Below, in pieces: positions 760 through 17,397 of a DNA stretch of 64,000 nt. The number at the start of each line of letters is the position of its first letter. The first letter of the stretch is position 1. The notes under the pieces were generated by a model. That model was not told where the DNA came from and made no database searches. It saw only the letters and a list, made by a program, of their open reading frames with translations. Made by a program: the position numbers and the translations under genes. Source of the DNA: an uncultured Gammaproteobacteria bacterium (GTDB lineage Bacteria; Pseudomonadota; Gammaproteobacteria; Pseudomonadales; Pseudohongiellaceae); the NCBI GenBank assembly GCA_913060695.1, contig CAJXUA010000006.1, positions 62,001 to 126,000 of the forward strand, in the 5' to 3' direction.

Positions 760-2478
760 TCAACCTGGAGCGGCCTTGCGTTTGTCGGCTTGTGGCATGA
801 GGTTGGCGAGGACTTGTTCACGCGGACCAAAGCTGACCGCGGCGCCGTCCTTCATGACGAGAATCTTGTCTACACACATCAACACCATAGTGCGGTGGGT
901 AATCACGACGACGGTACAACCTCGTTCTTTAACTCTTTGCAGCGCCGCTACGAGTTCGCGCTCGCCTTGATCATCGAGATTAGAATTAGGTTCATCTAAA
1001 ACGATGAGTTTAGGGTTGCCGTATACAGCACGTGCGAAACCGATGCGTTGTCGTTGCCCGCCAGAGAGTATGCCGCCGCTACCGCCAATGAGCGTGTCGT
1101 AGCCATTAGGCAAGCGCAGGATGAGTTCGTGTACTCCGGCAAGTTGCGCAGCGTCCACGATTTTGTCAGGGTCAATCTCACCGAAGCGGCAGATGTTCTC
1201 GGAGATGGTGCCATCGAATAACTCGATGTCCTGAGGCAGATAGCCAATGTGAGGGCCCAGCTCGCGGCGGTCCCAAGAGAAGATGTCGGCGCCATCTAAA
1301 CGCACCTTACCGCCTCCGGTTGGCCAGATGCCGAGCAGAGCTCTGGCGAGACAGGATTTTCCAGACGCACTCGGTCCCACGATACCCAAGGCTTCGCCCG
1401 CCGCAAGCTCAAAGGCAACGCCCGAAACCACGGGAGCACGTGCACTTGGCGGCGTTATATATATCCCTTCGACACTGAGATTGCCCTTAGGATCTGGCAA
1501 AGACATTGTCTCTGTGTCTTTCGGAATGTTCTCTAATAATTGGCCGAGTCTATCATACTGAGCGCGAGCTACAGAGAAGCCTTTCCAAGTGCCCACCAGC
1601 ATGTCGATTGGCGCGAGCGCTCGGCCGAGTAATAGGGAGCCAGCAATCACCATGCCGGGCGATATTTCCTGGTTAAGAGCCAGTAGAGCGCCCAAGCCGA
1701 GGATTAGAGATTGCGTGATAACGCGAAAAGATTTGGAGAATGTAGTGAGAATGCCGGCCCAGTGGCTGGCGTCGGTCTGCAGGAAGAGTACCTTGTTGGC
1801 ACGCACTTGCTGACGTTTGCGAACATCTTCGATCATGCCCATTGCTGAGATGACTTCCACATTGCGAATACTGCCATTGATTTGATTGTTTACCCAGTTC
1901 GCTTCGGTATTGGCATCCTTGAGCTTGGTAGTGGTGACCTTCTCCGTAACATAGGCCAAAGCTACCATGACTAAACCGGCGATTATGGCGACGACACCGA
2001 ACCAGAAATGGAACATGAACATTACGGCTACATATATGGGGAACCATGGGGCATCGAATAGGGCAAATAGGCCATTGCCCGTCATAAACTGTCGCAGCTG
2101 GGACAGGTCATTATTGGGCTGTGAGCCATTGCTCATGCCGCCGGAATAGAGAGCCTGCTTGAAGGTCGCATCGAATACACGGTTACGCAGGCCTTGCTCG
2201 ATCTTGTTGCCGGCGCTGACTAAGATTCTCGAGCGGACCCACTCGAATGCGCCGCTTGCCGCCATCAGAAACACCATGATGATGGTTAGCATCGCCAGTG
2301 TTGAAACGCTGCCACTACTCATCACGCGGTCATAGACCTGTAACATGTACAGAGTCGGCACCAACATTAATAGGTTGATAGCGGCGCTATACGCGCCTGC
2401 GTAGATGAAGTATTGGCGGACGGACTTAAAAGCCTCGAAGAGTTCTTTGTAGCGGACGTTATTTTTAGGATCTTTCAT
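760..2478 (-). CDS. Type I secretion ABC transporter (PrtD/RsaD-like permease/ATPase)
   Basis: This is the inner-membrane energiser of a type I secretion system, exporting a C-terminally signalled protein in one step. The protein has 572 residues, the normal size for the PrtD/HasD/RsaD class without an N-terminal C39 peptidase domain. A six-helix membrane domain fills about residues 20-310. The ATPase follows with Walker A GPSASGKS (about 365-372), signature LSGGQRQR (about 470), Walker B LIVLDEP and H-loop VITHR. Start ATG at 2476-2478. The HlyD-type adaptor follows directly. No TolC homologue is visible in the window. With the RTX/S-layer gene nearby the layout resembles Caulobacter rsaADE, so S-layer export is the favoured role (inference). 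Confidence 0.93.
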   Translation of the reverse strand: MKDPKNNVRYKELFEAFKSVRQYFIYAGAYSAAINLLMLVPTLYMLQVYDRVMSSGSVSTLAMLTIIMVFLMAASGAFEWVRSRILVSAGNKIEQGLRNRVFDATFKQALYSGGMSNGSQPNNDLSQLRQFMTGNGLFALFDAPWFPIYVAVMFMFHFWFGVVAIIAGLVMVALAYVTEKVTTTKLKDANTEANWVNNQINGSIRNVEVISAMGMIEDVRKRQQVRANKVLFLQTDASHWAGILTTFSKSFRVITQSLILGLGALLALNQEISPGMVIAGSLLLGRALAPIDMLVGTWKGFSVARAQYDRLGQLLENIPKDTETMSLPDPKGNLSVEGIYITPPSARAPVVSGVAFELAAGEALGIVGPSASGKSCLARALLGIWPTGGGKVRLDGADIFSWDRRELGPHIGYLPQDIELFDGTISENICRFGEIDPDKIVDAAQLAGVHELILRLPNGYDTLIGGSGGILSGGQRQRIGFARAVYGNPKLIVLDEPNSNLDDQGERELVAALQRVKERGCTVVVITHRTMVLMCVDKILVMKDGAAVSFGPREQVLANLMPQADKRKAAPG

Positions 2479-2606
2479 TGAGGCTTCTTATTCATAGTGT
2501 TGTATTAGTGAGTTCATCTAAGTGGGGCGCTGTCGCGCCCTTTTCAAGTTTTGTTCCTTAAGGACGAGATTGTACACGTTCACCGGTTCGCCTGTTAGAG
2601 CTCTAC

Positions 2607-3350
2607 TTAGAGCTCCTGCGCACCCTCTGCGAGGGCTTTTAACGTGTCTGGGTCGTTGATGAGCAAGCAAGCTGGGCCATCGCGTTTAACAATCTGTCGA
2701 GCCTGTAAGGTCTGGAAGACTCGGGTAACAGTTTCTCGGCTCAAGTTCAGCATGATTGCGATCTCCATGTGCGTAGGAGGGTTGTTTATCTTCGAGGCGC
2801 TGCGCCCGCCCTTCTCGCCTGCCTCCAGTAGCATCCACAGCTGACAGCAAACGCGCTGGCTGATATTAGGTAGGCCCAGTAGAGAACGTTGTCGCGTCAT
2901 CTGCCTAAGGCGTGAGGCCAAGCGCTGACCTAGCACCTTGAAAATCTCTGGTTGTTTCAACATGACCTCGCGCAGGCTATCCATCGGAATGAATACTGTG
3001 ACGGCGGAGGTCAATGCAATGACATATTCAGGTTGAGTGCCGTGATCGAAAAGACCAAGATCGCCGCAAAAATCGCCCGGTTCGACAAAATAGAGGCCCA
3101 CTTCGCGCCCATCGATGGTAAAATCAACCCCTTGCAAGCGCCCTTCGAATAAGAAACACACGGCCTCTTCCTCTACACCGGCATTTAAGACAATGCCGCG
3201 GCGAGCGAACTTACGCAGAGTAGACAGTGTCGCAAGTTGACTCAGAATCTCGTGAGACAGAGGTTTTAAAATAGGAAAAGTGCTTAACAGCTCTGGGGTT
3301 ACCACGTTGTGTTCTATCCCTGGTGGCTGGTTTCGGCGACGCTGGGGCAT
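2607..3350 (-). CDS. Crp/Fnr-family transcriptional regulator
   Basis: A 247-residue DNA-binding regulator. The N-terminal cyclic-nucleotide-type beta-roll fills about residues 25-135, followed by a dimerisation helix and a winged helix-turn-helix. The recognition helix SRETVTRVF (204-212) keeps the Arg, Glu and Arg (205, 206, 210) that E. coli CRP uses to read TGTGA. The cyclic-nucleotide pocket is altered: the GELGLF equivalent is GDLGLF (96-101), and the CRP phosphate-binding Arg-Ser pair aligns with Pro107-Glu108. Binding of cAMP is therefore uncertain. There is no N-terminal cysteine cluster, so it is not an FNR-type oxygen sensor. A CRP-like site lies 46 bp upstream, shared with the divergent FecR operon. 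ATG at 3348-3350. Confidence 0.9.
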   Translation of the reverse strand: MPQRRRNQPPGIEHNVVTPELLSTFPILKPLSHEILSQLATLSTLRKFARRGIVLNAGVEEEAVCFLFEGRLQGVDFTIDGREVGLYFVEPGDFCGDLGLFDHGTQPEYVIALTSAVTVFIPMDSLREVMLKQPEIFKVLGQRLASRLRQMTRQRSLLGLPNISQRVCCQLWMLLEAGEKGGRSASKINNPPTHMEIAIMLNLSRETVTRVFQTLQARQIVKRDGPACLLINDPDTLKALAEGAQEL

Positions 3351-3396
3351 TATAGAAGCTCTAAGGGGAATAGCAAACGTCAGTAATTACGTGCCG

Positions 3397-3412
3397 TGTG
3401 ACTGTAATCACC
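3397..3412. promoter_or_regulatory. Crp-type operator between the regulator and the FecR operon
   Basis: TGTGACTGTAATCACC fits TGTGA-N6-TCACA with one mismatch. It lies in the 152-bp divergent region. A -10-like TATTCT at 3434-3439 begins 37 bp after the site begins, the geometry of a class II (about -41.5) activator promoter for the rightward operon. Binding by the adjacent Crp-family protein is inferred from its CRP-like recognition helix. Confidence 0.72.
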
Positions 3413-3502
3413 CGAGTTTCAATTAGCTTGCGATATTCTAAGCATCGTCAATCTAGGTCAGTTGTGCCCCAACTGAACCTCACTCCCTAAGGGGAAGAGA
3501 AT

Positions 3503-4900
3503 ATGCAAACTAGACTACCAAATTTCGGAAAACGAACTGCGACTCGCATCGCGTTGTTGCCATTGCTTATAGCGATGGCGTCGGCCCATGGGGAAACTGG
3601 CGCAAACGTAGGCGAAGTGAGCCTCGTGCTGGGCAAGGCCTACCTTAAATCGGGCGATAAGCGCACACCGGTTCACGCTGGCACTCTTATAAAGGTCAGC
3701 GATCAGGTCATTACAGAGTCTAATGGCCATGTGCATATTCGTTTCGTCGACGACGCCCTAGTGAGCGTTCGTCCCGATAGTACCTTAGAGATTCAGCGCT
3801 ACGACTTCGATGAGAAAAGTCCTAAAGACTCCTCAATCAAGTTAAATCTTCTTGAAGGCGTTACTCGCGCCATCTCCGGTGAAGGAGCTCACGCGGCACG
3901 TGATCGTTTCCGCCTGAATACCCCTGTTGCTGCGATCGGCGTCCGGGGTACTGATTTCGTTGTGAGTGCCTCTGGCCAGTCGGTTCGCGCAATGGTGAAA
4001 GAGGGTGCCATCGTAATGGCGCCGTTCTCATTGGATTGCTTGGCCACTACATTTGGCCCATGTGCAGCAAATGCCGTGGAGCTTTCCGAAGACTCATTGC
4101 AGATGGTACAAGTAGATGGCAATGCACCCCTGCCTCGCTTGGTTCCCGCTACAGATGAACGCGGTGAGCTTTCCACCGAAGAAGTAGCCGTCGCTAATGC
4201 AGAGCCCGAGACTCGGGCAGACGACAAGACTGCCGGTACAGAGCTCTATCTGGAAAATGTCACATCGCGCCGTGTGGCCGAAGTCGCTAGCAATGTTGCC
4301 TCGCGCCCACCTGTGATCGTGACGCCTAAGCCGCCTACCCCTACTGTAAAGCCTGATTTCACGCCAAGCTCAGCTTTGTCGGCCAACAGGCTGGTTGCTA
4401 ACAATCTTGTTTGGGGGCGCTGGAATGGCAATAGCGGTCAGGGGTCTCAAGAGCGAATTAGCTTAGCGTATAGCACTGCAAGTGCTGGTCGTGATGTTAC
4501 TGTCGGTGGTGGTGGGTATGTACTATTCAGGGATAGCAACGGCAGCACACTAGTCCGGCCTGATCTAACAGTGGTGAGCTTCGCTCTGAGCAGTGCACAA
4601 GCTTTTTATCATTCCGATTCAGGGGTGATGTCTATGCAGGTCAACAGCGGTTCTTTATCGGTTGATTTTAATGCAAAGAGCTTCAGGACCCAGCTTGACT
4701 TGAACTCTGACGCCTCTGGCCGAGTCGATTTTTCTGCCTCGGGTAAGTACGACGATGGTGGTTTCTTCTATAACGATACGGACATGCAAAGCGTGAAAGG
4801 TGCAGTGAGCTTGGATGGAAATGAAGCTGCTTACTTCTTCGAGAAGACTCTCGGCGAGGGCAAGCGTGTAGACGGCCTTACCCTGTGGGGCGCGCCATAG
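3503..4900 (+). CDS. Secreted FecR-domain protein with TbpB-like C-terminal barrel
   Basis: A 465-residue exported protein. A signal peptide (about 1-30, ending MASAHG) has no lipobox cysteine. A FecR domain fills about residues 38-155 (GEVSLVLGKAYL through TPVAAIGVRGTDFVV). A proline-rich linker near 267-285 leads to a C-terminal part (about 295-465) with alternating strands. Its end, with KYDDGGFFY, KGAVSLDGNEAAYFFEKTL and a final GLTLWGAP, resembles the terminal barrel of TbpB-like proteins carried by Slam/type XI systems. That resemblance is my own reading and needs a structure prediction. The next gene begins 2 bp later, so the two are cotranscribed. It may sense or bind something at the surface and signal to the cyclase. 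ATG 3503, weak AAGGGG Shine-Dalgarno sequence. Confidence 0.85.
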   Translation: MQTRLPNFGKRTATRIALLPLLIAMASAHGETGANVGEVSLVLGKAYLKSGDKRTPVHAGTLIKVSDQVITESNGHVHIRFVDDALVSVRPDSTLEIQRYDFDEKSPKDSSIKLNLLEGVTRAISGEGAHAARDRFRLNTPVAAIGVRGTDFVVSASGQSVRAMVKEGAIVMAPFSLDCLATTFGPCAANAVELSEDSLQMVQVDGNAPLPRLVPATDERGELSTEEVAVANAEPETRADDKTAGTELYLENVTSRRVAEVASNVASRPPVIVTPKPPTPTVKPDFTPSSALSANRLVANNLVWGRWNGNSGQGSQERISLAYSTASAGRDVTVGGGGYVLFRDSNGSTLVRPDLTVVSFALSSAQAFYHSDSGVMSMQVNSGSLSVDFNAKSFRTQLDLNSDASGRVDFSASGKYDDGGFFYNDTDMQSVKGAVSLDGNEAAYFFEKTLGEGKRVDGLTLWGAP

Positions 4901-4902
4901 TC

Positions 4903-6903
4903 ATGAGCACTCTCCGTCTAATCAATCCCTTCAATCGAGCACTGGCCTTTCTATTGCGCCTAGTGCCCTATGGTGCACGCCTTCTTCTATTGGCGCTCGC
5001 TGGGGTTTTGACGGCATTGATTGTGACCTTATTCAAGGGCAGTTTAGATACGGTTGAAGAGAGTGTTGGGGCGCTGGGTTGGACTCTGAACCCCGAGACA
5101 GCATTGGAGCAGCGCATCACTATTGTCGCGATCGACGAGAAGAGTCTTGCTCAAGAAGGTAACTGGCCTTGGCCTCGCGCAACGATGGCGCGCTTGGTCA
5201 CGGCATTGAATGATGCTGGCGTGCAGCTTCAGCTCCACGACATCGTATTCCCCGAAACGGCACAAGGCGACGATGCATTAGCGTTGGCTCTGCAGGCCTC
5301 CCGCGGCGCAGTGCTGGCACAGCAGCCGCAACTTAATTCTGAGCAAACTCTGCGAACGGGTGTATTGAGTCATCCCGTGTCTGGCGTAAGCTGTTCGGAT
5401 GGCTTGGCTAGCACCTCTAACTACATCGCTAATAACGCCACTTTCGCATCTATTCCCAAAGGGCACATCTCCCCTATCGTTTCTTCGGATGGTGCTATCC
5501 GCAAAATGCCGGCTCTCATCTGTGTAGATGGAAGCGCCTACCCCGCTCTGCCTATCAGTGCTTTACTACAAGCACTTAGTACGCAGGTATGGGGTGTCAG
5601 CGTCACTGAAGGAAATTCTTTGTTTGCTCCCGCACAAATGTTGCAGCTCGACTCTTACCCAGGTCTGCGCATCCCGCTAGATGCACAAGGAAATATGCGC
5701 ATCTCCTATCGCAATCTTCCCGAAACCTATCAGGCTATCTCTGCCGCGGATATTCTCAATGGCGATTACGACCCTGCGATGCTAGAGAATGGTTGGGTGA
5801 TAGTGGGGGCAACTGCTTTCGGGATTGGTGACATTGTACCCACTCCCTATAGTGGTGCCACGCCGGGTGTCGAGTTGCTGGCTCGAATCTTGGGCAGCCT
5901 GCTTGATACTAATGTGCCCTATGCGCCAAGCGGCGCGGCGCTGTTTATGTTTCTACTAAGCATGGTCAGTGCGGCTATCTTGTTTGTTATTGCGGGTGCA
6001 CGCGAGCGTTTCGCTAGCTACGGCCTGCCCATTGCGGGCTTGTTATTGCCCAGTGCGGCCATCACGCTGCATATCGAGTTACTAGGTTCTAGCAACATCT
6101 GGCTTGGCTGGGTAAGCCCTGCCTTGTACTGCGTACTCGCCGCCAGCGCCTTGATGCTGCTAGAACAAGCGCGGGTGCGCGACGAGCGTAGTCGTGTGTT
6201 TGGAAACCTAAATGCCTATCTTCCAAGCGATGTTGCGAAAGAGATCGCCTTTAGTCTGCCCAGCTCCAGCGTTAATGCACGCCGGGCAGAGGTAACCTTG
6301 CTGAGTGCAGATCTACGCAATTTCTCTGCATTCTCCGAGGCTAGACCGCCAGAGGAGTCCGCGGCTCTACTGCATTTCTTCTTCGTGCGCGCCGCAGAGA
6401 TTGTTGAGCAACATGGTGGCCGCATTCATGAGTTTAAAGGTGACAGCCTGCTAGCCATTTGGGATGGTCACGATGCGCAAGCGGCAACGCAGGCTCTGCA
6501 TGCTGCAGAACAAATGCAGGCCTCTATCGATCGCGATATGCTGCCCCAGCATCTACCGCAAGGCTTAGAGCCATTAGCTTTAGGCGTGGGTATTGAGCAA
6601 GGCTCCGTTCTTATTGGTTCTATTGGCCCAGCGCAGCGGCGAACCCATACTCTGTTGGGCGATACCGTTACTATTACTTTGCGCATTCAAGAGATGACTG
6701 CGGAATTAGCGTCACCTATTTTGATCGGAGAATGTGCTGCGCGTCAGCTAAGCGATCAGAAGCTTGAGTCTCAGGGTAGCTATCTCTTGGCTGGTCTGCG
6801 CACGCCTCACGTTTTATTTTCGCCAGTTGCTGCCGACTCTCCTACTCGCAGAAGCAAGTCAGACACAGTTAGCTTAAGCGTTGTCTCTGGTGGGCGCCGC
6901 TAA
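4903..6903 (+). CDS. CHASE2-domain class III adenylate/guanylate cyclase
   Basis: An inner-membrane sensor cyclase of 666 residues. An N-terminal helix is followed by a periplasmic CHASE2 domain (about 50-330; ITIVAIDEKSL, NWPWPR, LHDIVFPE), three membrane helices (about 345-430) and a class III catalytic domain (about 455-640). Metal-binding Asp470 (SADLRNF) and Asp514 (FKGDSLLA) are present, with Lys512 at the purine-selecting position. Thr583 sits where many cyclases have Asp (class IIIb-like). The usual transition-state Asn of GDTVNLAAR is Thr590 (GDTVTITLR), while Arg594 is kept. Activity may thus be low or altered. I chose ATG 4903; an in-frame GTG at 4885 would overlap the FecR gene. 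It probably turns a periplasmic signal into cyclic nucleotide. Confidence 0.9.
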   Translation: MSTLRLINPFNRALAFLLRLVPYGARLLLLALAGVLTALIVTLFKGSLDTVEESVGALGWTLNPETALEQRITIVAIDEKSLAQEGNWPWPRATMARLVTALNDAGVQLQLHDIVFPETAQGDDALALALQASRGAVLAQQPQLNSEQTLRTGVLSHPVSGVSCSDGLASTSNYIANNATFASIPKGHISPIVSSDGAIRKMPALICVDGSAYPALPISALLQALSTQVWGVSVTEGNSLFAPAQMLQLDSYPGLRIPLDAQGNMRISYRNLPETYQAISAADILNGDYDPAMLENGWVIVGATAFGIGDIVPTPYSGATPGVELLARILGSLLDTNVPYAPSGAALFMFLLSMVSAAILFVIAGARERFASYGLPIAGLLLPSAAITLHIELLGSSNIWLGWVSPALYCVLAASALMLLEQARVRDERSRVFGNLNAYLPSDVAKEIAFSLPSSSVNARRAEVTLLSADLRNFSAFSEARPPEESAALLHFFFVRAAEIVEQHGGRIHEFKGDSLLAIWDGHDAQAATQALHAAEQMQASIDRDMLPQHLPQGLEPLALGVGIEQGSVLIGSIGPAQRRTHTLLGDTVTITLRIQEMTAELASPILIGECAARQLSDQKLESQGSYLLAGLRTPHVLFSPVAADSPTRRSKSDTVSLSVVSGGRR

Positions 6904-7056
6904 AACCACGACTCCTCTCTCTATTTAATGCATCCCGCCGAAATGGGGGCATGTTTCTTATTGCTTGTCGCTGCGCGTTTATTGATAATTGCCTGCATGC
7001 TTGTTAAACGACATATGCTCCGCTATGTCTGTCGCCTAGCCGGATCCAAAGAGTAT

Positions 7057-8364
7057 ATGCGCTGGTCTCTTCTCTCTATTAGCTTACTGCTTCCTTTGTC
7101 AGCTCAGGCTTGCCCTGATCTCTCTGCGTTCTATCAATTTGGGGAAGACCCCGAGTCTCAGCGAGCTCTGGAGTCTGGGCTTGCGCCTCTAATGAGCGAG
7201 TGCCTGCTAAGTTCAGAGTACTTCGCTCTATATGGAGCGGTGGTTATGGAGACAGGAGATCTGGCGGAGTCCTTAGATTTGCTAGAGCGAGCCTTGATGT
7301 TAGACGCGAATAATGGCGCGGCCCTTATCGACTATGCACAGGCCCTGTATTTGCGCGGGCAGTTGTTTACGGCTTTAGATTTAAATAAGCAATTGCTCGC
7401 GAGGGAGGATCTGCCAGAGAACATCAAAAACATACTGGCGCAACGAGAGCAGCAATGGCGCGCACAGACTCGGCAACATGGTTTTGGCGCTGATATCTTG
7501 GCGGGCTATGACAATAATCTCAATGGCGCGCCTGACCCTAGCCAAATTACCCTTACACTTTCGGGCGAGCCGGTAATCCTGACCTTGAATTCTGAGTATC
7601 AGCCTATTAGTGGGCCTTATCTAAATCTTCGCCTAGGCGGACAATTTCGCCAACTAGCGGCAGATCATCAACACAATGTAAGTGCCGAGATGCGTGGTCG
7701 TGTTAGTGAAGATTCTGGATCTGACCTTGTGCAATTAGAGTCTCGCTATAGCTATCTGCAACCGAAGCGAGATCAGGCCTGGCAATTCGGTGCGGCGATG
7801 AGCCATCTCTTTTTCGGGGGCAATGCCCTTTATTCTGCGGTTGAGGGCAATGTTCGCTACCAGCACACACTGAACGATGCTTGTAATCGCAGCTATAGCT
7901 TGGCGACGCAGTATCAGAACTACAAAGATCAGAGCAGCCTAAACTCGATAGAGAGCAAGCTCGGCGCAGGCTTGGAGTGTTCTGTCCCATTGGCCGGGAA
8001 GCCGAGTGCGTTTGGCTTAGAGTTAAGCTTGCTGAACAACACAGCCTTTAATGCAGGCAGGCCTGGTGGCGACAGAAACGGCTGGCAATTCAATGCCCAG
8101 TGGCAATACCCCATACTCAAGGGCGTGCTCAGCAGCCAGCTTAATCACACCGAGCTTCGCGATACGAATGGCTATAGCGAGCTATTAGACAATGGTGCGC
8201 AGAGGTGGCTTAAGCGTAGTTATGTGCTTGTACAGTACAGGCAGTCTCTCTTCCCCAATATGGCATTTGTCGTGAATGCCTACCACCAGCATCAGAGCAG
8301 CAATATAGAGCTGTTCGATAGCCTAGATAGCACCCTCGAACTTGGCATAAGTATGAGCTTTTAA
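7057..8364 (+). CDS. TPR plus outer-membrane beta-barrel protein (Slam/DUF560-like)
   Basis: A 435-residue outer-membrane protein. The signal peptide is MRWSLLSISLLLPLSAQA. A TPR-like helical part follows (about 40-145; LDLLERALMLDANNGAALIDYAQAL), then a beta-barrel from about residue 150 (FGADILAGYDNNLNGAPD) to the end. The last strand finishes LGISMSF with a terminal Phe, the usual BAM signal. A periplasmic TPR domain before a DUF560-like barrel is the plan of Slam and type XI secretion outer-membrane proteins. The gene is third in the operon with the FecR/TbpB-like protein, a plausible cargo. I chose ATG 7057 because the signal peptide begins there; the frame stays open to 6928. The Slam assignment is inference. 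Confidence 0.78.
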   Translation: MRWSLLSISLLLPLSAQACPDLSAFYQFGEDPESQRALESGLAPLMSECLLSSEYFALYGAVVMETGDLAESLDLLERALMLDANNGAALIDYAQALYLRGQLFTALDLNKQLLAREDLPENIKNILAQREQQWRAQTRQHGFGADILAGYDNNLNGAPDPSQITLTLSGEPVILTLNSEYQPISGPYLNLRLGGQFRQLAADHQHNVSAEMRGRVSEDSGSDLVQLESRYSYLQPKRDQAWQFGAAMSHLFFGGNALYSAVEGNVRYQHTLNDACNRSYSLATQYQNYKDQSSLNSIESKLGAGLECSVPLAGKPSAFGLELSLLNNTAFNAGRPGGDRNGWQFNAQWQYPILKGVLSSQLNHTELRDTNGYSELLDNGAQRWLKRSYVLVQYRQSLFPNMAFVVNAYHQHQSSNIELFDSLDSTLELGISMSF

Positions 8365-8666
8365 AAGCCAACTTAATGCTTTAAAAATAGTAGCTTACAT
8401 TCGAGAGTTAATGAAAGAAACAGGTTGTAATTGTTGCGAAGGCCTAGTACTATCCCGGGGCATGTCCGCTTGTGGTCAGGAATACTCGTGTCACTCAAGT
8501 GGGTTTAACTAGGAATACGTAAGAGATTTTCCTCTGTGTGACTGTAGTCACAGGGAAATAGATTGGACTTACGTATCCTTGGCACAACCGAATGGGGTCA
8601 TCCGCTGCTGTAGGCGTGTCACAATCGGATAAAACAAATTGGAATAAATTTTAAGGAGTTCTAACA
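8365..8666. other. Long leader and promoter region of the S-layer gene
   Basis: A 302-bp gene-free stretch between the TPR-barrel gene and the S-layer gene. It contains the Crp-type operator and -10 hexamer listed separately, then an AT-rich leader of about 80 bases ending in an AAGGAG Shine-Dalgarno sequence (8653-8658) placed 8 bases before ATG 8667. I see no small gene in it. Confidence 0.6.
8537..8579 (+). promoter_or_regulatory. Crp-type operator and class II-like promoter of the S-layer gene
   Basis: TGTGACTGTAGTCACA (8537-8552) is a dyad, perfect except for its two central bases, and matches TGTGA-N6-TCACA exactly. A -10-like TATCCT lies at 8574-8579. The site-to-hexamer offset (37 bp start to start) is identical to that at the FecR operon, and 11 bases from the TGTGA onward (TGTGACTGTAR TCAC core) are shared. 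This implies activation by the same Crp-family protein, centred near -41.5. Confidence 0.75.
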
Positions 8667-11468
8667 ATGGCGATTACCGTCGAAGCTCGTACCAATATTA
8701 TCGGCCTCGTAGTAGGTATGTTTAACGCTGCACCAGGCGCAAGTGTTTTGTCTGATCTAGTAGCTGCATACGAAAATGGTTCTACAATCAAGCAAATCGC
8801 AGCAAATCTTGCCGCTACTGCCGAATTCAAAACTATATTCCCAACTTTCAGCACTAATGGTGAGTTTGCGACTAAGGTCGTATCACAGCTTTTGGCTGAA
8901 TCAAGTGCAGCCGCACAAGCGGAAGCAGTAACAGTATTGACTGCTGCCCTTAACGGCGGCATGTCACGTTCTGACGCGTTTGTTGAGGCGATTACTTTCG
9001 TTAACGCAACTGCAAGCACTAACGCAACTTTCGGTACAGCAGCTGCTGCATTCGACAACAAAGTTGAAGTTGCAACTTACTACTCTGTTGAGAAGAACCT
9101 CAGCGGTAGCAGCCTAGCAGCGTTGCAAAACATTGTGGTTAACGTCACTAGCTCTGCAGCTACTGTTACAACTGCAAAAGCAGATGTAGATGGTGCTGTG
9201 AACGTTGGCTCAACTTATACACTGACTACTGGCATTGATGGCCTGACTGGTCTTGGCGGCAACGATACATTCAACGCTTCTTACACAACTGCCGCTGGCG
9301 ACGTGTTTGGCGGTCTTGATTCAATCGATGGCGGTGCTGGTACTGATACGTTGAACGTAGCGAGCTCTGCTCCTGCTGCAGCGTTCTCGTTCAACAACGC
9401 AACTATCAAGAACGTTGAAAATATCAGCGTTTCTACTAACGGCAACTTCACTGGTTTGAACATCTCCGGTATTTCTGGCCTGACTTCTTTCACTGGTGTT
9501 GCAGCTGATACAGCGGCAACTACTTTGACTGCAGCGGGAACTACTGACGTAACTCTGAACCTGAGCACGACCAATAACTCTACAGTGACTGGCGGTAAAG
9601 CAGTCAGCATCACTAAGGGCTCTACAGCAGCTGGCACAGTGGGCGTAACTGGTTCCGCATTGACAGCTGTAACGCTCAAAGGTGGTGTTGGTGCAGCTAC
9701 TATCAGCAACAACACGGCTACTACACTGAAGTCTGTAACTCTGGATGGTGTAGATGTTAACACTGGCATCACTGCAAACGGCTTGACTGACGTGACTCTG
9801 AAAGGCGCCGTTACTGCAGCGCGCACTATCACTATCACCAACAGCACAGCAGCTCACAGCTTGACTGTAAATGCAGCGGGTACTGGTTACAACTCTACGG
9901 GTGCGACTGAGTTCCAGACAGTTGTAACTGATACTGTTGCAACAAGCGCTACAGTAAACACAACTGCCAAGAGCAGCTTGGATTTAGTAAACAGCACTGC
10001 ACTTAAGTCTGTAACGTTGACTGGCTCTGGCGCTCTGAAGTTGGCAACAACTGCAGCAGCGGTAACTAGTATCGACGGTTCTGCTGCTACTGGCGCACTG
10101 ACACTCGGTACGCTGAACGCAGCTGCAGTGACAGTTAAAACTGGTTCTGGTAAGGACTCTATGACTATTGCTGCAACAGCTACAACAACTGTTGATACTG
10201 GTGCTGGTGACGACACGGTAACTTTAGGCTCTGCAATTGCCGCTGCTTCTAAGATCTCTCTGGGTGCCGGTAACGACACTCTGTTAGTCGGTACAGGCAG
10301 CGTTGCTACCTCTACAACTACAGTGATTGACGGTGGCGACGGTGATGACTCTGTTTCTGCACAACTTATCACTGCTGGTAACGCAACTCAGTTCAAGAAC
10401 TTCGAGAAGATTAACCTCGATAGTAATACTGGTCTTGACTTGGCTCTTCTGACAGGCAATAGCATTAGTGGTCTGACAATTAGCGGCGTTTCAACTACTG
10501 CAACTTACCAGAACGTTAAACTAGCTAACGCGTTGACTGTTGATTACGTAGCAACTGGCGCACCAGCTGGCAATAACACTTTGACCTTCTCTGATGCAAC
10601 TGGTACTGCTGATTCGTATACAGTCACTTTCGCTGGCGTAACTACTGGAACGCCTGGTGCAGTGAACGTACGTGCGGGCACGTTGAACGCAGCCGGTATT
10701 GAGAACTTTAATCTTGTTTCTGGCGGCACAAGTGCTTGGAACGAAATTACTCTTGGTGCTGCAGCGCAGGCGAAAACTGTGGTGATTACTGGCGCAGCCA
10801 AGTTAACTCTAGCTTTTGCGGCTGGTTTCGGTACTGCAGGCGCAACTACTGGTGTAACGTCAATCGATGGTTCTGCTGCAACTGGTGCATTGTCGATTAA
10901 TACTACAAATGCAAACGTTACTACTGGATCTGCTGGATTGACTGTTAAAGGCGGCTCCGCTGGCGACACAATCACTCTTGCTGGTAAAGCAACTGTTGAT
11001 GCTGGCGCAGGTGCCGACACAATTACATTGGCGGCTGCTGGTGGTACTGTTACTGGTGGTGCTGGTAACGATACTATTGATATGTCTGCGGCGGTTTCTG
11101 GTGCAGCTGCGGCAGGTAATGCCTTCTCTGCTCTAGCTTCAACTACTATTACAGATGCTGCTGCTGGTGATGTGATTAAGTTTGCTAACAACGGTGTTGA
11201 AACCTTCACTACAACTAAGGTCAATGTTGGCTCTGCTACCGCGCTTAGCGGCGGTACTACTAACGCACTTGATCTCGCAGCTGCTGGTAACGGTGGTGCT
11301 GCAAGCATAGTGACTTGGTTCCAGTATGCTGGTGATACTTACATAGTGGTTGATTCCGGTGCAGGTGCAACCTTCACTGCTACTGATCACGTCGTTAAGT
11401 TGACTGGTCTGGTTGACCTGAGCACTGCAGTGATCGACGGTGCTGCAAATACTCTAACTCTGGTGTAA
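8667..11468 (+). CDS. RTX/S-layer-like surface protein, probable type I secretion cargo
   Basis: A 933-residue protein very rich in Ala, Thr, Gly, Ser and Val, with no Cys and only two Trp, as is usual for S-layer and type I exported proteins. There is no N-terminal signal peptide. Residues about 1-130 form a helical DUF4214-like/anchoring segment. RTX-type calcium motifs include GLGGNDTF (about 197), GGAGTDTL, GAGDDTV (512), GAGNDTLLVG (533), GGDGDDSV (556) and GGAGNDTIDMS (797). The hydrophobic C-terminus (VTWFQYAGDTYIVVDSG, then LTLV) suits an uncleaved type I signal. SIDGSAATGAL occurs twice, about 264 residues apart. Caulobacter RsaA is the nearest functional analogue. Strong Shine-Dalgarno sequence, Crp-type promoter and double terminator point to high expression. 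Confidence 0.88.
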   Translation: MAITVEARTNIIGLVVGMFNAAPGASVLSDLVAAYENGSTIKQIAANLAATAEFKTIFPTFSTNGEFATKVVSQLLAESSAAAQAEAVTVLTAALNGGMSRSDAFVEAITFVNATASTNATFGTAAAAFDNKVEVATYYSVEKNLSGSSLAALQNIVVNVTSSAATVTTAKADVDGAVNVGSTYTLTTGIDGLTGLGGNDTFNASYTTAAGDVFGGLDSIDGGAGTDTLNVASSAPAAAFSFNNATIKNVENISVSTNGNFTGLNISGISGLTSFTGVAADTAATTLTAAGTTDVTLNLSTTNNSTVTGGKAVSITKGSTAAGTVGVTGSALTAVTLKGGVGAATISNNTATTLKSVTLDGVDVNTGITANGLTDVTLKGAVTAARTITITNSTAAHSLTVNAAGTGYNSTGATEFQTVVTDTVATSATVNTTAKSSLDLVNSTALKSVTLTGSGALKLATTAAAVTSIDGSAATGALTLGTLNAAAVTVKTGSGKDSMTIAATATTTVDTGAGDDTVTLGSAIAAASKISLGAGNDTLLVGTGSVATSTTTVIDGGDGDDSVSAQLITAGNATQFKNFEKINLDSNTGLDLALLTGNSISGLTISGVSTTATYQNVKLANALTVDYVATGAPAGNNTLTFSDATGTADSYTVTFAGVTTGTPGAVNVRAGTLNAAGIENFNLVSGGTSAWNEITLGAAAQAKTVVITGAAKLTLAFAAGFGTAGATTGVTSIDGSAATGALSINTTNANVTTGSAGLTVKGGSAGDTITLAGKATVDAGAGADTITLAAAGGTVTGGAGNDTIDMSAAVSGAAAAGNAFSALASTTITDAAAGDVIKFANNGVETFTTTKVNVGSATALSGGTTNALDLAAAGNGGAASIVTWFQYAGDTYIVVDSGAGATFTATDHVVKLTGLVDLSTAVIDGAANTLTLV

Positions 11469-11480
11469 GCCAAGTTAGAG

Positions 11481-11547
11481 GCCCGTTATCATTGATAGCG
11501 GGCACTTGTATACAAAGCCCAGCTGCCTAAAGGTAGCTGGGCTTTTT
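11481..11547 (+). terminator. Tandem hairpins ending the S-layer gene
   Basis: A first hairpin (11481-11503) pairs GCCCGTTATC with GATAGCGGGC around a 3-base loop, with one G-T pair. A second (11516-11542) pairs AGCCCAGCT with AGCTGGGCT and runs into six T residues. Two stacked hairpins suit a highly expressed monocistronic gene. Confidence 0.9.
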
Positions 11548-11607
11548 TATGCAGGTAAAAAAGGGAATTGAACTCTGTATATCTAAGCTTAATTCTAAAT
11601 TTAAAGC

Positions 11608-12363
11608 TTACAGACCTTCAAAGCTGATATTGCCGTCGTCATTAGGGAGGTCGAACGGGAGCTCGAGAGGAAGCTCTTCAGGTTTTGATCCTGGATCTAT
11701 GCGTGCTAGGTTTTGCATCGAGATAAGTTGGCAGTAAATCAGCGCCAATACCCCCTTGTCCCGCAAAGTCGCCAAATCTTCAACTTTCAAGGTATTGAAC
11801 TTGCTCTCGTCTACGCAGAACAAGCCGTCGACGGACACGTCCATATCGTCCTTCTTGATGCTGATCGGCCAAGGTACCAATAGTTCTAATTCTTCGAGCA
11901 GTAAACACAGAGCCTGAGTTACGGAGTGGTTTTGTGACACCTGCGAGAGGAATTCCAAAGTTTGTTTTATCTGAGTACTTGGTTCGCCAGTTTCGTCGAA
12001 AAAAGTATTTCCCTCATTGTCGTTGATCAATCCGCTGTCGCTATCGAAGCACAGAACTTGCTGATCTTCTGCGTTAGTGAGAGCGAAAGGAAAACCACGG
12101 TAAGCTGCAGGAATATAGCCAGCTAACCAATTTCCCGCAGCATCTACGAGATAATTGCTCCCCGGCTCAAAACCCTGCACCACGAAAAGTCCAAAATGAT
12201 CCCCCATCTTGCTGAAAGCGATAGGTAGATGTAGCGCTGCTCTGGGCGCCTCCTGAATTACGATTGGGCACAGTGAATCCTGCGCTGCGAAAGAAAAATT
12301 GCTCACAGGCTTCCAGAACATATTCTTGTGTAACTCTTTTGAAACGGCGATGTAATTCGGCAT
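11608..12363 (-). CDS. SapC-family protein
   Basis: 251 residues matching the SapC family, named from the surface-array locus of Campylobacter fetus. Family hallmarks seen are FWKPVSNFSFAAQDSLCPIV near the N-terminus, IPAAYRGFPFAL (about 85-96), CFDSDSGLI, FFDETGEPS and the closing LALIYCQLISMQNLARI. The biochemical role is not established; SapC genes usually sit beside secreted surface-layer proteins. It lies convergent to the S-layer gene, with terminators between. It is probably cytosolic, since no signal peptide is visible. The unknown gene at 12454 lies 90 bp upstream on the same strand and may be cotranscribed. Confidence 0.88.
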   Translation of the reverse strand: MPNYIAVSKELHKNMFWKPVSNFSFAAQDSLCPIVIQEAPRAALHLPIAFSKMGDHFGLFVVQGFEPGSNYLVDAAGNWLAGYIPAAYRGFPFALTNAEDQQVLCFDSDSGLINDNEGNTFFDETGEPSTQIKQTLEFLSQVSQNHSVTQALCLLLEELELLVPWPISIKKDDMDVSVDGLFCVDESKFNTLKVEDLATLRDKGVLALIYCQLISMQNLARIDPGSKPEELPLELPFDLPNDDGNISFEGL

Positions 12364-12453
12364 ATCAATTCCTTAAAGATTCTCAAATGCGAGAATGTCC
12401 GATAAAACTATATTGGGGCAGCGGATCAAGCGACTTAGCAAATAGTCGCGATG

Positions 12454-12954
12454 CTAGTGCAATCGCGAGGCGTGGCCGAGTTCGGATGCATCACCCTTCG
12501 ATGCGATCCATTCAGGCCAAACGTGGCTAGGCCATTCGGCAACGGCCCACAGCGTATGGATTATCTCCAGCCACTGTCGCAATGGTACTGCTTGTAGCGC
12601 TAATGTTTCACGCTGGCCTGTCTGAGATCGAAAACTCATGGCGAGGGTATTTGAGTTTGGAGTGAGATCTACCGCGCCGACCAGCCATTCCTGCGAACCG
12701 GTAAGGCGTTGTACTGGCGTTTCTGGAGTAAGATTCGCCTTTGCAGCGTCTTGTGCGAAACTTTGCTCGATCTCCATCGGAATATTGTCATTAGATTGTT
12801 TCTCTAGCCACAAGAACAAGTGGGGCAGTAGGCGCAATAGAAGGCGCTGACTTAGCCACATCACGACAGTCTCGCTGGATGTAAGTTCGCCAGAGATGCG
12901 GATCCTGTCCTCTGCCTCGACATACTCAGTGGTTAAACGTTGTAACTCTTTCAT
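12454..12954 (-). CDS. Conserved-looking protein of unknown function beside sapC
   Basis: 166 residues, not recognised. The N-terminal half has an amphipathic, Leu-rich segment (MWLSQRLLLRLLPHLFLWLEKQ, about 32-53), too charged at its edges for a clear membrane helix. The C-terminal half is Trp-rich (QWLEIIHTLWAVAEWPSHVWPEW), suggesting a folded domain. No signal peptide or known catalytic motif is visible. It lies just upstream of sapC on the same strand, so a role with SapC in surface-layer biogenesis is a reasonable guess. Codon use resembles its neighbours, and the ORF is well bounded by an ATG. Confidence 0.7.
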   Translation of the reverse strand: MKELQRLTTEYVEAEDRIRISGELTSSETVVMWLSQRLLLRLLPHLFLWLEKQSNDNIPMEIEQSFAQDAAKANLTPETPVQRLTGSQEWLVGAVDLTPNSNTLAMSFRSQTGQRETLALQAVPLRQWLEIIHTLWAVAEWPSHVWPEWIASKGDASELGHASRLH

Positions 12955-13178
12955 AGTTGCTTGAATTGCTCCTGCTTAGCACTGCACAGAATGTGCGCTT
13001 ACTACATAATTGGGGGCTCGAAACCCAGCTTACAAGGCGGCAAATCCCAATGGTAGTAAGTCGAGAGTTTAATTTTCATCCTAACTTGAATTGCATCAGG
13101 CTGGGTTAAATGCAAACTATTTTTGAAGCAAAGCTGTCAAACGAGTACCATTAGTAAACACCCGCGCGAGTATTGCTT

Positions 13179-13871
13179 ATGTCTAAGTCCAGTTTACCAG
13201 TTGTACTCGTGGTAGTGCCTCTGCTACTTGCCGCAGGGTCGATTTGTGCCCAAGATTTAACCCTATTCGAAGCCGTAGAGACCCCCGCTAACGCCGGCGG
13301 CCCAGGCGCCGCACAGGCCCGTGAGCAGCGCAATCTCCCCAATGGCCCTGCCTTCACGCTCTTGGGCACCAGCCGCATAGGAGATACCCGTCGAGCTAGT
13401 CTTATCGATAGCGATGGCAAGGTGCTGTTCGTGGAGCTGAGCGACGGCGACTCTACTCCTATACCAGATCACAGCGGCTATAGCATCGTGTCCCTAGGCT
13501 CGGGAAAGGTCTCGATCCGTATGCCGGAGGACACTCCCTGTATCGGCTCTAGCGACAAGGGCGTGCACTGTGGTTCCAATGGCTTGGCGGAGTTATCCCT
13601 GACTACCGCAGCCCCAATAGTGCTTGCTAGCAGTCAAGAGAATAACAACGGCGCTCCAGAGCAAGCGGGCGGAGCCGAAGAAGGTCAGCCAGAGAATCCG
13701 TTCGCAGCGGCGCTGCGTGCGGCAGCTCAGAACGAGGCGAGCGCCCAAAGCGGTCGTCCGCGCCGGAACAACGGCGATGGGTTCGAGGCACGCCGTATTG
13801 CAGACGAGGATGTGCCACCAGGCATGCGCAAGGTGCGCACCCCCTTCGGCGACCGCCTTGTTGAACTCTGA
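13179..13871 (+). CDS. Exported protein of unknown function
   Basis: 230 residues from ATG 13179 (a TTG two codons earlier is possible). A signal peptide is clear: MSKSSLPVVLVVVPLLLAAGSICAQ. A small beta-rich domain follows (about 60-145; PAFTLLGTSRIGDTRRASLI, a Cys pair in CIGSSDKGVHCG), then a low-complexity Gln/Glu/Ala/Gly linker. The basic C-terminal tail ends VPPGMRKVRTPFGDRLVEL. The layout resembles small periplasmic accessory proteins of secretion or pilus systems, but I cannot assign a family. It precedes the glycosyltransferase by 11 bp, so it probably belongs to the polysaccharide operon. Confidence 0.72.
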   Translation: MSKSSLPVVLVVVPLLLAAGSICAQDLTLFEAVETPANAGGPGAAQAREQRNLPNGPAFTLLGTSRIGDTRRASLIDSDGKVLFVELSDGDSTPIPDHSGYSIVSLGSGKVSIRMPEDTPCIGSSDKGVHCGSNGLAELSLTTAAPIVLASSQENNNGAPEQAGGAEEGQPENPFAAALRAAAQNEASAQSGRPRRNNGDGFEARRIADEDVPPGMRKVRTPFGDRLVEL

Positions 13872-13882
13872 GCACGGATGAC

Positions 13883-14737
13883 GTGACTCAACTGTCGTCA
13901 CAACTCCCGGATGCAGGTCTAGCGCTAACGGTCTCGATCGTTGTGTATCGATCGGACCCTGCTGTACTACAGCTCACTCTGGACTCTATAGTGGCCGCTA
14001 TCCACCATGCGCAGGGCACAGGTCTGCTGGGCAGGGCTTCCATCGACATCATTCACAACTGTGGCAGTGAGCCGGCATTGACGGCGCTTGTCGCTGTATG
14101 TCGCAAGCAGGCAACTGACATCGACATCGTGCTGTTGGAAGGCCATGGCAATGTCGGCTACGGCCGGGGCCACAACCTGTCTATTAACAAGGCGGAGTCG
14201 CATTGCCATCTGATCTTGAACCCCGATGTTACGCTAGCGCCAGAGTCCCTAGTGGAAGGCCTGCAGTTCATGAGCCGTAATCCAGAGATTGTAGCTCTTA
14301 GCCCTGCGGTTACAGACGGTGAGGGGCATAAGCAATATGTTTGTAAGCGCTACCCTTCTGTCCTGGACTTCCTATTACGAGGCTTCGCGCCGGCGTTCCT
14401 GAAGCGTCGTTTCGCCACCCGCTTAGCGCGTTATGAGATGCGTGATCTGCCCGAGCAGGAACCCAGCACCGATATTCCAATCATCAGCGGTTGTTTCATG
14501 TTGTTCCGCACTGCGGCTTTGCGCGCTGTAGGGGGTTTCGACGAGCGCTATTTCCTCTATTTCGAAGACTTCGATTTATCTTTGCGGGTACACAGCGAGG
14601 GTAGCCTCGCGTATCTGCCTTCGATGCATATCGTGCACTTAGGTGGGAATAGCGCGCGCAAGGGGCTGGGACATATCGGCATGTTCGCGCGCTCTGGTCT
14701 GCGCTTCTACAACTCCCATGGTTGGCGATTGCTGTGA
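13883..14737 (+). CDS. Glycosyltransferase family 2 (rhamnosyltransferase-like)
   Basis: 284 residues of the GT2/WbbL type, transferring a sugar from a nucleotide donor to a lipid-linked glycan at the inner face of the inner membrane. Visible motifs are VSIVVYRSDP at the N-terminus, NVGYGRGHN (donor site), LILNPDVTL (DxD-like metal site), ISGCFMLFR, and GGFDERYFLYFEDFDLSLR (acceptor/base region). It starts at GTG 13883. The next gene overlaps by 4 bp (GTGA), which implies translational coupling. With rfbC, rfbD and rfbB downstream a rhamnosyl transfer is likely, though the donor sugar cannot be read from sequence. Confidence 0.88.
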   Translation: MTQLSSQLPDAGLALTVSIVVYRSDPAVLQLTLDSIVAAIHHAQGTGLLGRASIDIIHNCGSEPALTALVAVCRKQATDIDIVLLEGHGNVGYGRGHNLSINKAESHCHLILNPDVTLAPESLVEGLQFMSRNPEIVALSPAVTDGEGHKQYVCKRYPSVLDFLLRGFAPAFLKRRFATRLARYEMRDLPEQEPSTDIPIISGCFMLFRTAALRAVGGFDERYFLYFEDFDLSLRVHSEGSLAYLPSMHIVHLGGNSARKGLGHIGMFARSGLRFYNSHGWRLL

Positions 14738-15699
14738 ATAGTATCAACTCTCCGATTGCGCAGGCTGTCTTAGTCACTGGTGCCACGGGCTTCATTGGGC
14801 GCTCGCTTATGCAGCGCCTATTAGAGAAGCAACTGCGGGTCCATACGCTGTCTCGGGAGTTGCCCCAGCTGGGTCCGGATCAAGCCGACTGTGTGCCCTT
14901 CCAAGGCGATATAGCTGACGCGGAGCTGCTAGCTCGGGCGTGCAAAGGGGTTGATACGGTGTTTCACCTCGCTGGCTACGCGCACGTTAACCAACACGAT
15001 GTGGCGGAGCTGCAGCGCGTCAATGTCGAGGGCACCCGCGCTCTTTTGAACGCGGCCATCGCCGCGGGTGTGCGTCGGATCGTCTTCTTTAGCAGCATTC
15101 TTGCAGATGCACGCCTAAACCCTGAGGGCAGTGCCTATGGGCAGAGTAAGTTAGAGGCCGAAACCCTGCTCCTCAAGGCGGCGAGCGCGGGCCTGATAGA
15201 GGTCTGCTGCCTGCGACCGGCTAATGTGTATGGCTTGGGCATGAAGGGCAATCTTCTAACGATGATACGGCTGGTGCAGCGTGGGCTTATGCCGCCACTA
15301 CCAGTGCCTAGCGCCAGCCTGTCATTGGTGGGCAATCGGGATCTCTGTGAGGCGGCGCTATTGGCCGCACAAGAGCCCCAGGCGAATGGACAGGTCTACG
15401 CTGTTACCGACGGCAAGACCTACACCATGAAGGGCATCGAAGTCTCGGTGCGCCGAGCTCTGGGCCGTGCGCCGCGCAGCTGGCACACACCCTTTCCGGT
15501 TTTCTATATGGTCTTCGCCACTTTGGAAGTGCTCGGTAAAGTGCTGCGCCTAGCGAACGCGCCTGGCCTGCGTTCCTACCGCGCATTGCGCAGTGGCAGC
15601 GTGGTTTCCAGCGAGAAAATACAGCAGGAACTGGGCTATAATCCAGCCGGTTCCCTAACTGACGAACTCCCCGGCATCATGGCGCAGCGCGCGCGATGA
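14734..15699 (+). CDS. NAD-dependent sugar epimerase/dehydratase (extended SDR)
   Basis: 321 residues of the extended short-chain dehydrogenase family. The Rossmann motif is VTGATGFIG near the N-terminus. Ser/Tyr/Lys catalysis is suggested by FFSSILADAR and YGQSK. A nucleotide-sugar-binding C-terminal half follows. It resembles UDP-glucose 4-epimerase-like enzymes of O-antigen clusters (WbpV type), converting a UDP-hexose or UDP-N-acetylhexosamine. The exact substrate is unclear. I chose GTG 14734 because it overlaps the preceding stop as GTGA; a TTG at 14722 is an alternative. It follows the glycosyltransferase and precedes rfbC by 47 bp. Confidence 0.86.
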   Translation: MNSINSPIAQAVLVTGATGFIGRSLMQRLLEKQLRVHTLSRELPQLGPDQADCVPFQGDIADAELLARACKGVDTVFHLAGYAHVNQHDVAELQRVNVEGTRALLNAAIAAGVRRIVFFSSILADARLNPEGSAYGQSKLEAETLLLKAASAGLIEVCCLRPANVYGLGMKGNLLTMIRLVQRGLMPPLPVPSASLSLVGNRDLCEAALLAAQEPQANGQVYAVTDGKTYTMKGIEVSVRRALGRAPRSWHTPFPVFYMVFATLEVLGKVLRLANAPGLRSYRALRSGSVVSSEKIQQELGYNPAGSLTDELPGIMAQRAR

Positions 15700-15746
15700 T
15701 GTGAACCAGACGCCCAAGGGTGTCGCTTTAGTGTAGAAGGCCCAGT

Positions 15747-16307: not shown

Positions 16308-16321
16308 ACGAGGTGTATGAA

Positions 16322-17200: not shown

Positions 17201-17218
17201 ATTAGAACCACTGACTCT

Positions 17219-17366
17219 AGGAGCGGGCTTGCCCGCGAATTGGTTCGATTAATGAAGATCTGCGGAAGATTTTGACCTTCGCGGGCAAGCCCGCTCCTAC
17301 AATTGATGCCAGATCATTTGAATAGTGGCGGCCGCAAAAATTAAGGTAGGAGCTTGCCTGCAAGCG
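17219..17366. repeat. REP/BIME-like palindrome between rfbD and rfbB
   Basis: Two 21-bp arms (17219-17239 and 17278-17298) form a perfect inverted repeat built on GAGCGGGCTTGCCCGCGAA. The 38-bp spacer contains GAAGATCTGCGGAAGAT, which recurs in other copies. A third, diverged arm (TAGGAGCTTGCCTGCAAGCGA) lies at 17346-17366, close to the rfbB ribosome-binding region. Confidence 0.88.
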
Positions 17367-17397
17367 ACCAGAAACAACAACAGAAAGGAAGACAAGA

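Follow-up and report, generated by a model that had tools for sequence, protein, structure and literature searches.

A FecR, CHASE2 cyclase and barrel gene trio shares conserved CRP-type promoter sites with an RsaA-type S-layer gene in a Pseudohongiellaceae bacterium and its relatives

We analyzed a 64,000-nucleotide stretch of DNA (the window) from an uncultured Pseudohongiellaceae bacterium (GCA_913060695.1, contig CAJXUA010000006.1, positions 62,001 to 126,000). In the window, three tandem genes encode a FecR-domain protein, a membrane cyclase with a CHASE2 sensor and a predicted outer-membrane barrel. A gene for a CRP/FNR-type regulator diverges from this trio, an RsaA-type surface-layer (S-layer) gene follows it, and conserved CRP-type sites stand before both the trio and the S-layer gene. 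The original prediction, made from the letters of the window, had read the trio (3503-8364) as a putative surface-signalling operon; outside this span lie the regulator gene (2607-3350), the S-layer gene (8667-11468) and both promoter sites, and these additions change the probable purpose of the operon. We propose, at a probability of about 55%, that the trio and the divergent CRP-like gene together form a module of cell-envelope signalling with control over an RsaA-type S-layer. The features are listed here, with open reading frame (ORF) starts as called mechanically and with genes of the type I secretion system (T1SS) and other neighbours after the main elements.

3503-4900, + strand: FecR-domain protein, 465 residues (PF04773, E 3.2e-13, residues 67-170)
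4885-6903, + strand: CHASE2 - transmembrane - class III nucleotide cyclase, 672 residues (PF05226, E 1.3e-43; PF00211, E 1.3e-10)
6928-8364, + strand: TPR and 14-strand outer-membrane barrel, predicted, 478 residues (Pfam gives TPR families only)
2607-3350, - strand: CRP/FNR-type regulator (PF00027 and PF13545)
3397-3412: CRP-type palindrome TGTGA-N6-TCACC of the trio promoter, conserved in homologous regions
3434-3439, + strand: trio-promoter -10 element TATTCT, beginning 23 nt past the palindrome
8537-8552: CRP-type palindrome TGTGA-N6-TCACA of the S-layer promoter, conserved in homologous regions
8574-8579, + strand: -10 element TATCCT of the S-layer promoter
8667-11468, + strand: RsaA-type S-layer protein, presumed T1SS substrate, 933 residues (phmmer match to RsaA 5n97)
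760-2478, - strand: PrtD-type T1SS ABC transporter (TIGR01842, 738 bits, cut-off 510)
1-724, - strand: HlyD-type T1SS membrane-fusion protein, continuing past the window edge (L238:4358-5725; PF13437, E 1e-17)
L238:2988-4352, just outside the window beyond the HlyD-type gene: TolC-type gene (PF02321, E 3.4e-54)
11608-12363, - strand: SapC-domain protein (PF07277), beyond the S-layer gene

The tandem trio lies at the coordinates first proposed for it, and its spacing is as tight as had been claimed: the FecR and cyclase genes share 16 bases, and 24 bases separate the cyclase gene from the barrel gene. Over 66 loci, the called gaps have medians of -4 (FecR to cyclase) and 105 (cyclase to barrel). 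Since several relatives start at the equivalent of M44, the barrel gene probably starts at 7057; likewise, since many relatives of the regulator begin near the equivalent of residue 17, its actual start is probably about 3302.

The original prediction had proposed a search for the trio in other genomes, and we found it conserved. A search of named genomes using the barrel alignment yielded 74 loci in Pseudohongiella and other Pseudomonadales, mostly metagenome assemblies. Among the loci retrieved with the barrel as query that have at least 4 kb upstream of it, FecR, CHASE2 and barrel genes stand in identical order and orientation at 65/67, which speaks against chance and led us to reject the notion that the trio is not conserved. 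The trio occurs in Pseudohongiella and relatives and in Marinomonas; the exception L170 is a short contig, with a cyclase fragment on another contig. The CRP-like gene and the trio diverge at 62 of the 63 assessable loci, an ABC match is present at 59/61 (57 without L180 and L182, whose 26-29% matches are to another kind of ABC protein), and an S-layer-like match is present at 39/48. Loci of this family also appear under Klebsiella pneumoniae (L116) and Rhodoferax (L153) titles, with barrels 65% and 51% identical to that of the window; these records are probably mislabelled or misbinned assemblies.

At the level of whole genomes, the barrel protein was detected in 82 of 137 family genomes, in one of them (G048) through a paralogue only. 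With G048 counted as barrel-less and removed before the co-occurrence count, barrel and cyclase occur together in 79 of the 137 genomes, the barrel alone in 2, the cyclase alone in 3 and neither in 53. The S-layer protein was matched in 62 of 82 cyclase-bearing genomes compared with 1 of 55 genomes without the cyclase. These counts use different thresholds (barrel E ≤ 0.001, cyclase E ≤ 1e-100, S-layer E ≤ 1e-10) and lists typed by hand.

Gene order varies around the edges of this distribution. Three Marinomonas genomes have the trio and the CRP-like gene amid genes of sugar-polymer type, with an RsaA-like gene about 10.5-13 kb from the cyclase. The barrel gene of Oceanospirillum sediminis adjoins the S-layer gene, and elsewhere on this contig, at a distance of about 15 kb, are the CRP-FecR-cyclase genes. 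This genome was considered as a counterexample (a barrel without a cyclase) and rejected as such, given the CRP, FecR and cyclase genes on that contig.

The S-layer protein of the window is similar to the solved RsaA structure 5n97 (phmmer E 2e-25, residues 265-923), and its gene stands beside a complete T1SS with ABC, HlyD and TolC genes, the make-up of an RsaA-type, T1SS-exported S-layer. The RsaA S-layer of Caulobacter is exported by type I secretion. The present locus resembles the Caulobacter arrangement in that an RsaA-like protein adjoins a PrtD-type T1SS, and it differs in the CRP-type promoter site and the tie to the FecR-CHASE2-barrel trio. The S-layer/T1SS locus is flanked by sugar-nucleotide genes (RmlD type and GDP-mannose dehydratase type; window 14722-18489 and L238) and by an ABC-2 type exporter pair just beyond the window near the T1SS genes (L238). 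SapC-domain homologues occur near many of the related loci.

The trio and the S-layer gene are tied together by their promoters. We found GTGA-N6-TCAC in the CRP-FecR regions, which hold the trio promoters, at 58/61 loci as called and 61/61 allowing for over-extended ORF starts; before adjacent S-layer genes it was found at 43/47 as called and 45/47 after ORF-start correction. These counts come from related genomes and their rows are not independent. The trio site comprises 39 distinct 16-mers and the S-layer site 29, and single-base shuffles of the regions reached 9/10 matches to the CRP consensus in about 1% of cases. The full palindrome TGTGA-N6-TCACA is present in 2/58 trio promoters compared with 42/43 S-layer promoters, the commonest trio type lacking one outer base. 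The site mostly tracks the S-layer gene: it directly precedes displaced S-layer genes at L143 (2 kb from the barrel), at L141 (inverted) and in the three Marinomonas genomes (at least 10.5 kb from the cyclase), and Oceanospirillum keeps it both at the S-layer gene and at the separated CRP-FecR pair. There was no downstream site at the five loci without a downstream S-layer match (L140, L142, L148, L176 and L177).

A -10 hexamer (TANNNT), which played no part in the choice of rows, begins exactly 23 nt past the trio site in 54/58 promoters, as well as in the three added ones. The same offset was found in 36/43 S-layer promoters, with the hexamer one nucleotide later in 6 more. Hence, the sites are centred at -41.5, which is the geometry of class II CRP activation.

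Across the window, CRP-type matches with at most one mismatch number three in 64 kb, which is no numerical excess; the third (one mismatch) is at 42186-42201, inside the ORF at 41328-42365. Hence, the case for the promoter sites rests on conservation and position. Other patterns were set aside. FNR-type and TGTCG-type palindromes in the promoters showed no clear excess over shuffles. With a wider spacer, the CRP pattern scored 9/10 in 21% of S-layer regions, compared with 1% of shuffles, yet it did so in no trio region. A sigma-70 scan of 2400-8700 gave no more matches than shuffles did.

The barrel protein had been described as having the TPR plus DUF560-like barrel plan of Slam proteins, and this holds in part. 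The AlphaFold model, built with 48 relatives, has a predicted local distance difference test score (pLDDT) of 91.3 and places TPR helices first and then 14 strands, the number in Slam barrels. Its top Foldseek matches are the cellulose exporter BcsC (E 2.1e-12) and the porins OmpG and CymA. In a hidden Markov model search, the window barrel did not match the Slam family PF04575 at E ≤ 1; PF04575 was also absent among the 25 displayed of the 28 families matched by 48 barrel relatives, and PF24575 (TPR_Slam) was a weak match in 4/48 of these (best E 0.016). Profile comparison by hhalign gave 98.9% (E 2.9e-17, 276 columns) for the barrel part against five PF04575-positive barrels, which were trimmed at a D-x-N-x-N motif, and 1.1% against FadL barrels (10 sequences). 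A sixth barrel (L196) was dropped because it did not match this pattern, other PF04575-positive loci (L197 and L201-L207) were left out of the comparison, and the controls comprised the FadL set plus three window proteins taken singly, of which one or more is not a barrel. Paralogue barrels (L034 and others) scored 97.9% against the window family, yet 38.8% against FadL.

Barrels of this kind also accompany FecR proteins and a CHASE2 cyclase in other Pseudomonadales. At L112, a FecR gene lies directly between the gene of a barrel that passes PF04575 (40 bits) and a convergent CHASE2 cyclase gene; at L106, a PF04575-passing barrel (46 bits) has an adjacent FecR gene, with the cyclase two genes further. 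Barrel, FecR and CHASE2 cyclase genes are adjacent at L044, where the barrel fails PF04575, and a FecR protein (labelled by a profile match) immediately follows a PF04575 barrel at L200. Hence, the profile similarity and the sister loci that link PF04575 barrels to FecR and CHASE2 place the barrel, by sequence comparison, as a remote relation of Slam/type XI proteins, not filed as a PF04575 member. The source genome has a second FecR-barrel pair (L034:8602-14994) with a 448-residue TPR barrel, a 1665-residue FecR protein and no adjacent cyclase; giant FecR proteins are also found in relatives (up to 2327 residues, L053).

The first trio product has the FecR domain claimed for it, as PF04773 was matched. 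Its N-terminus reads like a signal peptide, without a lipobox cysteine (cysteines are at 179 and 187 only). The structure model has a FecR domain, a low-confidence linker and a C-terminal beta domain (pLDDT mostly above 90), with an overall predicted template-modelling score (pTM) of 0.49. Foldseek matched the model to the cell-surface-signalling domain of PupR (6ovk, E 2.9e-5). The C-terminus had been said to resemble TbpB-type barrels, and a structure prediction had been suggested as the check. In the model, this part matched TbpB (3ve1, E 3.4e-5), an fHbp chimera and lipocalins, while the TbpB template-modelling scores of 0.22 and 0.18 are low and the Pfam TbpB domain was neither matched nor present among the 22 families matched by 48 members. 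Compared by hhalign, the C-terminus matched the aligned C-termini of 12 other barrel-adjacent FecR proteins (91%, E 1.1e-6); singly, the best of these proteins reached 66% (L044) and most were below 15%, and the protein neighbouring the PF04575 barrel at L196 reached 0.4%.

Part of the FecR model is also similar to the cell-surface anchoring domain 5ix9 (root-mean-square deviation 0.9 over 65 columns, Foldseek E 0.01; hmmsearch E 0.0013, positions 47-117), which we take to be a LapA-type retention domain. The LapA retention module match was below its cut-off (27 vs 50 bits). The plan of a FecR anti-sigma protein was not found: PF04773 was the only convincing family, and there was no sigma factor in the nine proteins scanned (760-13871).

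Between the FecR and barrel genes, the membrane cyclase with a CHASE2 sensor was recovered as described (PF05226 and PF00211), its topology being taken from the family. Both metal-binding Asp residues (D476 and D520) and R600 are invariant (26/26). PADLOC matches to Pycsar cyclases were set aside as general class III similarity.

From these elements we infer a chain that would run from export by the barrel, through contact between FecR and CHASE2 in response to a signal, to a nucleotide and the CRP that binds it. The barrel, a remote relation of Slam/type XI proteins, would be an exporter in the outer membrane, the FecR protein would be its partner, and the C-terminal lipocalin/TbpB-like domain would be the export-targeting part. 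The FecR domain would stay in, or report to, the periplasm, where the CHASE2 domain of the inner-membrane cyclase would read it or its absence. The cyclic nucleotide would work via a CRP-type activator at the class II promoters that drive the trio itself and the S-layer gene. Most likely, the FecR partner of a Slam-like exporter reports the state of the surface to CHASE2. A more specific version, which we regard as unlikely in its full form, is a surface-coat homeostat: the FecR domain would be a periplasmic stopper, the C-terminal domain would be displayed outside via the Slam-like pore, and S-layer cover or binding of that domain would be sensed by CHASE2 from across the outer membrane and passed through cyclic GMP (cGMP) or cyclic AMP (cAMP) to S-layer synthesis. 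If true, a type XI-type exporter would be used as a transenvelope receptor.

Several results weigh against an S-layer signalling module, among them the missing PF04575 match and the low TbpB scores given above. Twenty of the 82 cyclase-bearing family genomes had no S-layer match at E ≤ 1e-10. The adjacent S-layer genes at L119 and L121 have no GTGA-N6-TCAC site, nor does the displaced S-layer gene of L149, where the trio site is kept. The CRP-like protein has no Arg at residues 105-108 (26/26), where the canonical cassette is Arg-Ser/Thr; the alignment sets the Arg-Thr of 3r6s at Q106-P107, and a hand alignment to E. coli CRP sets the pocket at P107-E108. Hence, this protein may not bind cyclic nucleotide in the usual manner. 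The source genome has a second, canonical-looking CRP with an Arg-Ser pocket (L193), which could own the promoter sites. All 26 cyclases have Glu at position 516 in place of the Lys of adenylyl cyclases, and in 25 of the 26 the transition-state Asn is replaced by Thr, Ser or Ala, one retaining it. Taken together, the guanylyl-type Glu516 and the Arg-less CRP-like protein mean that neither cAMP nor the ligand of the local regulator can be assumed.

The cyclase could accordingly be a guanylyl cyclase or an inactive sensor, with the module running on cGMP or on protein contact. Glu516 aligns with Glu in 2w01, which is deposited as an adenylate cyclase and which we take to be the guanylyl cyclase Cya2; 6fht and 5x4t have Lys, as do the sister CHASE2 cyclases of L044 and L106. 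On the other side, specificity is not fixed by residue identity, Thr589 is the same as in the 5x4t alignment, and the metal Asp residues and the Arg are invariant. We hold this alternative to be a real possibility, at somewhat less than even odds. The sites could instead belong to canonical cAMP-CRP (L193), the local CRP-like protein being nucleotide-free and the trio and S-layer gene being ordinary global CRP targets. The S-layer site has the classical form TGTGA-N6-TCACA, and the Arg-Ser pocket is in L193 rather than in the local protein. Against global control, there are just 7 exact sites in the 3.73 Mb genome (2 for the reversed-pattern control), 3 of the 5 inspected fall in mechanical ORFs, the gene of the local regulator diverges from the trio at 62/63 loci, and its S-R-E-x-x-x-R recognition helix is kept in 26/26. 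We consider global CRP control improbable.

Another reading dispenses with FecR-CHASE2 signalling: the barrel and FecR protein would be assembly parts (anchor or exporter) for S-layer or polysaccharide, and the cyclase would merely be co-regulated. Its supports are the Oceanospirillum barrel next to the S-layer gene and distant from CRP, FecR and cyclase, the exporter genes of presumed O-antigen type beside the T1SS, the sugar and glycosyl-transfer-like neighbours of the Marinomonas trio (as read from their sequences) and BcsC as the barrel's best Foldseek E-value. This reading sits poorly with the FecR and CHASE2 genes, which overlap or nearly touch at their median gap and stay paired in Oceanospirillum despite a barrel elsewhere, and whose adjacency recurs with a histidine kinase output (PMC5192318, in its available part). 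We think a pure assembly role doubtful, and retain the signalling module as the preferred reading.

Beyond the elements it missed, the original prediction largely holds in its gene anatomy, and none of the three outcomes that it had named against itself (a C-terminal fold unrelated to TbpB barrels, a barrel without DUF560 similarity, or no conservation of the trio) clearly occurred. Its statement that it knew of no description of a Slam-type pair with a cyclase is partly incorrect. The nearest published cases are a Campylobacterota cluster and the Sinorhizobium NsrA-CyaK/CyaD-Clr system. In Campylobacterota, a CHASE2 adenylate cyclase, a phosphodiesterase, a FecR-domain outer-membrane protein and a TPR protein are clustered, and one pathway was proposed for them (PMC9239204). 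In the available part of that paper there is no Slam reading, no CRP site and no S-layer link; the nine window proteins scanned by Pfam include no phosphodiesterase. In Sinorhizobium meliloti, the outer-membrane barrel NsrA is needed for signal perception upstream of the CHASE2 cyclases CyaK and CyaD1/D2 and of Clr, whose targets include the FecR protein SMc02177 and the TPR protein SMb20495 (PMC7529298, PMC13001267, PMC5498481). Barrel, CHASE2 cyclases and CRP-family regulator are thus shared with our locus, whereas in the parts of these reports at hand the barrel spans NsrA residues 600-1200, a plant protein serves as the signal and there is no S-layer.

Other systems share single elements, as far as the available parts of the reports show. 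Type XI cargo carries its effector part at the N-terminus and an eight-stranded barrel at the C-terminus; lipidated and soluble forms are known, the soluble ones with ordinary signal peptides (PMC8406197). The TPR plus barrel exporter (DUF560, PF04575) with adjacent candidate cargo of a putatively similar plan is like ours, whereas here PF04575 is not matched directly, the putative cargo has a FecR domain and a cyclase gene stands in between. A Lysobacter cluster (sigma factor, FecR regulator, TonB receptor, TbpB-like protein and Slam) likewise has a FecR-family gene adjoining a Slam pair, but there FecR regulates a sigma factor and is distinct from the cargo, and no cyclase is present (PMC11233812). 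The Burkholderia BiofilmReg operon sets a FecR-LysM protein beside a CHASE2 receptor, as here, but this is a histidine kinase, with no barrel and no cyclase (PMC5192318). Among the matches listed from open-licence PubMed Central (PMC) literature, titles and abstract starts described no S-layer link or Slam-cyclase pairing. The new part is the wiring: conserved CRP-type sites tie the trio to the S-layer gene.

A 2016 report stated that the input of CHASE2 domains was unknown (PMC5192318), and this locus offers a small, conserved candidate answer, the FecR partner of a Slam-like exporter. For the RsaA-type S-layer genes of Pseudohongiella relatives, Marinomonas and Oceanospirillum, it adds an activator site that is conserved, and envelope sensing, cyclic-nucleotide signalling and S-layer synthesis become testable within one system. 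If the proposal is true, type XI-type exporters would be signalling receptors besides secretion pores. The conserved sites that tie the module to the S-layer gene suggest a bacterium that keeps watch on its own surface and adjusts it.

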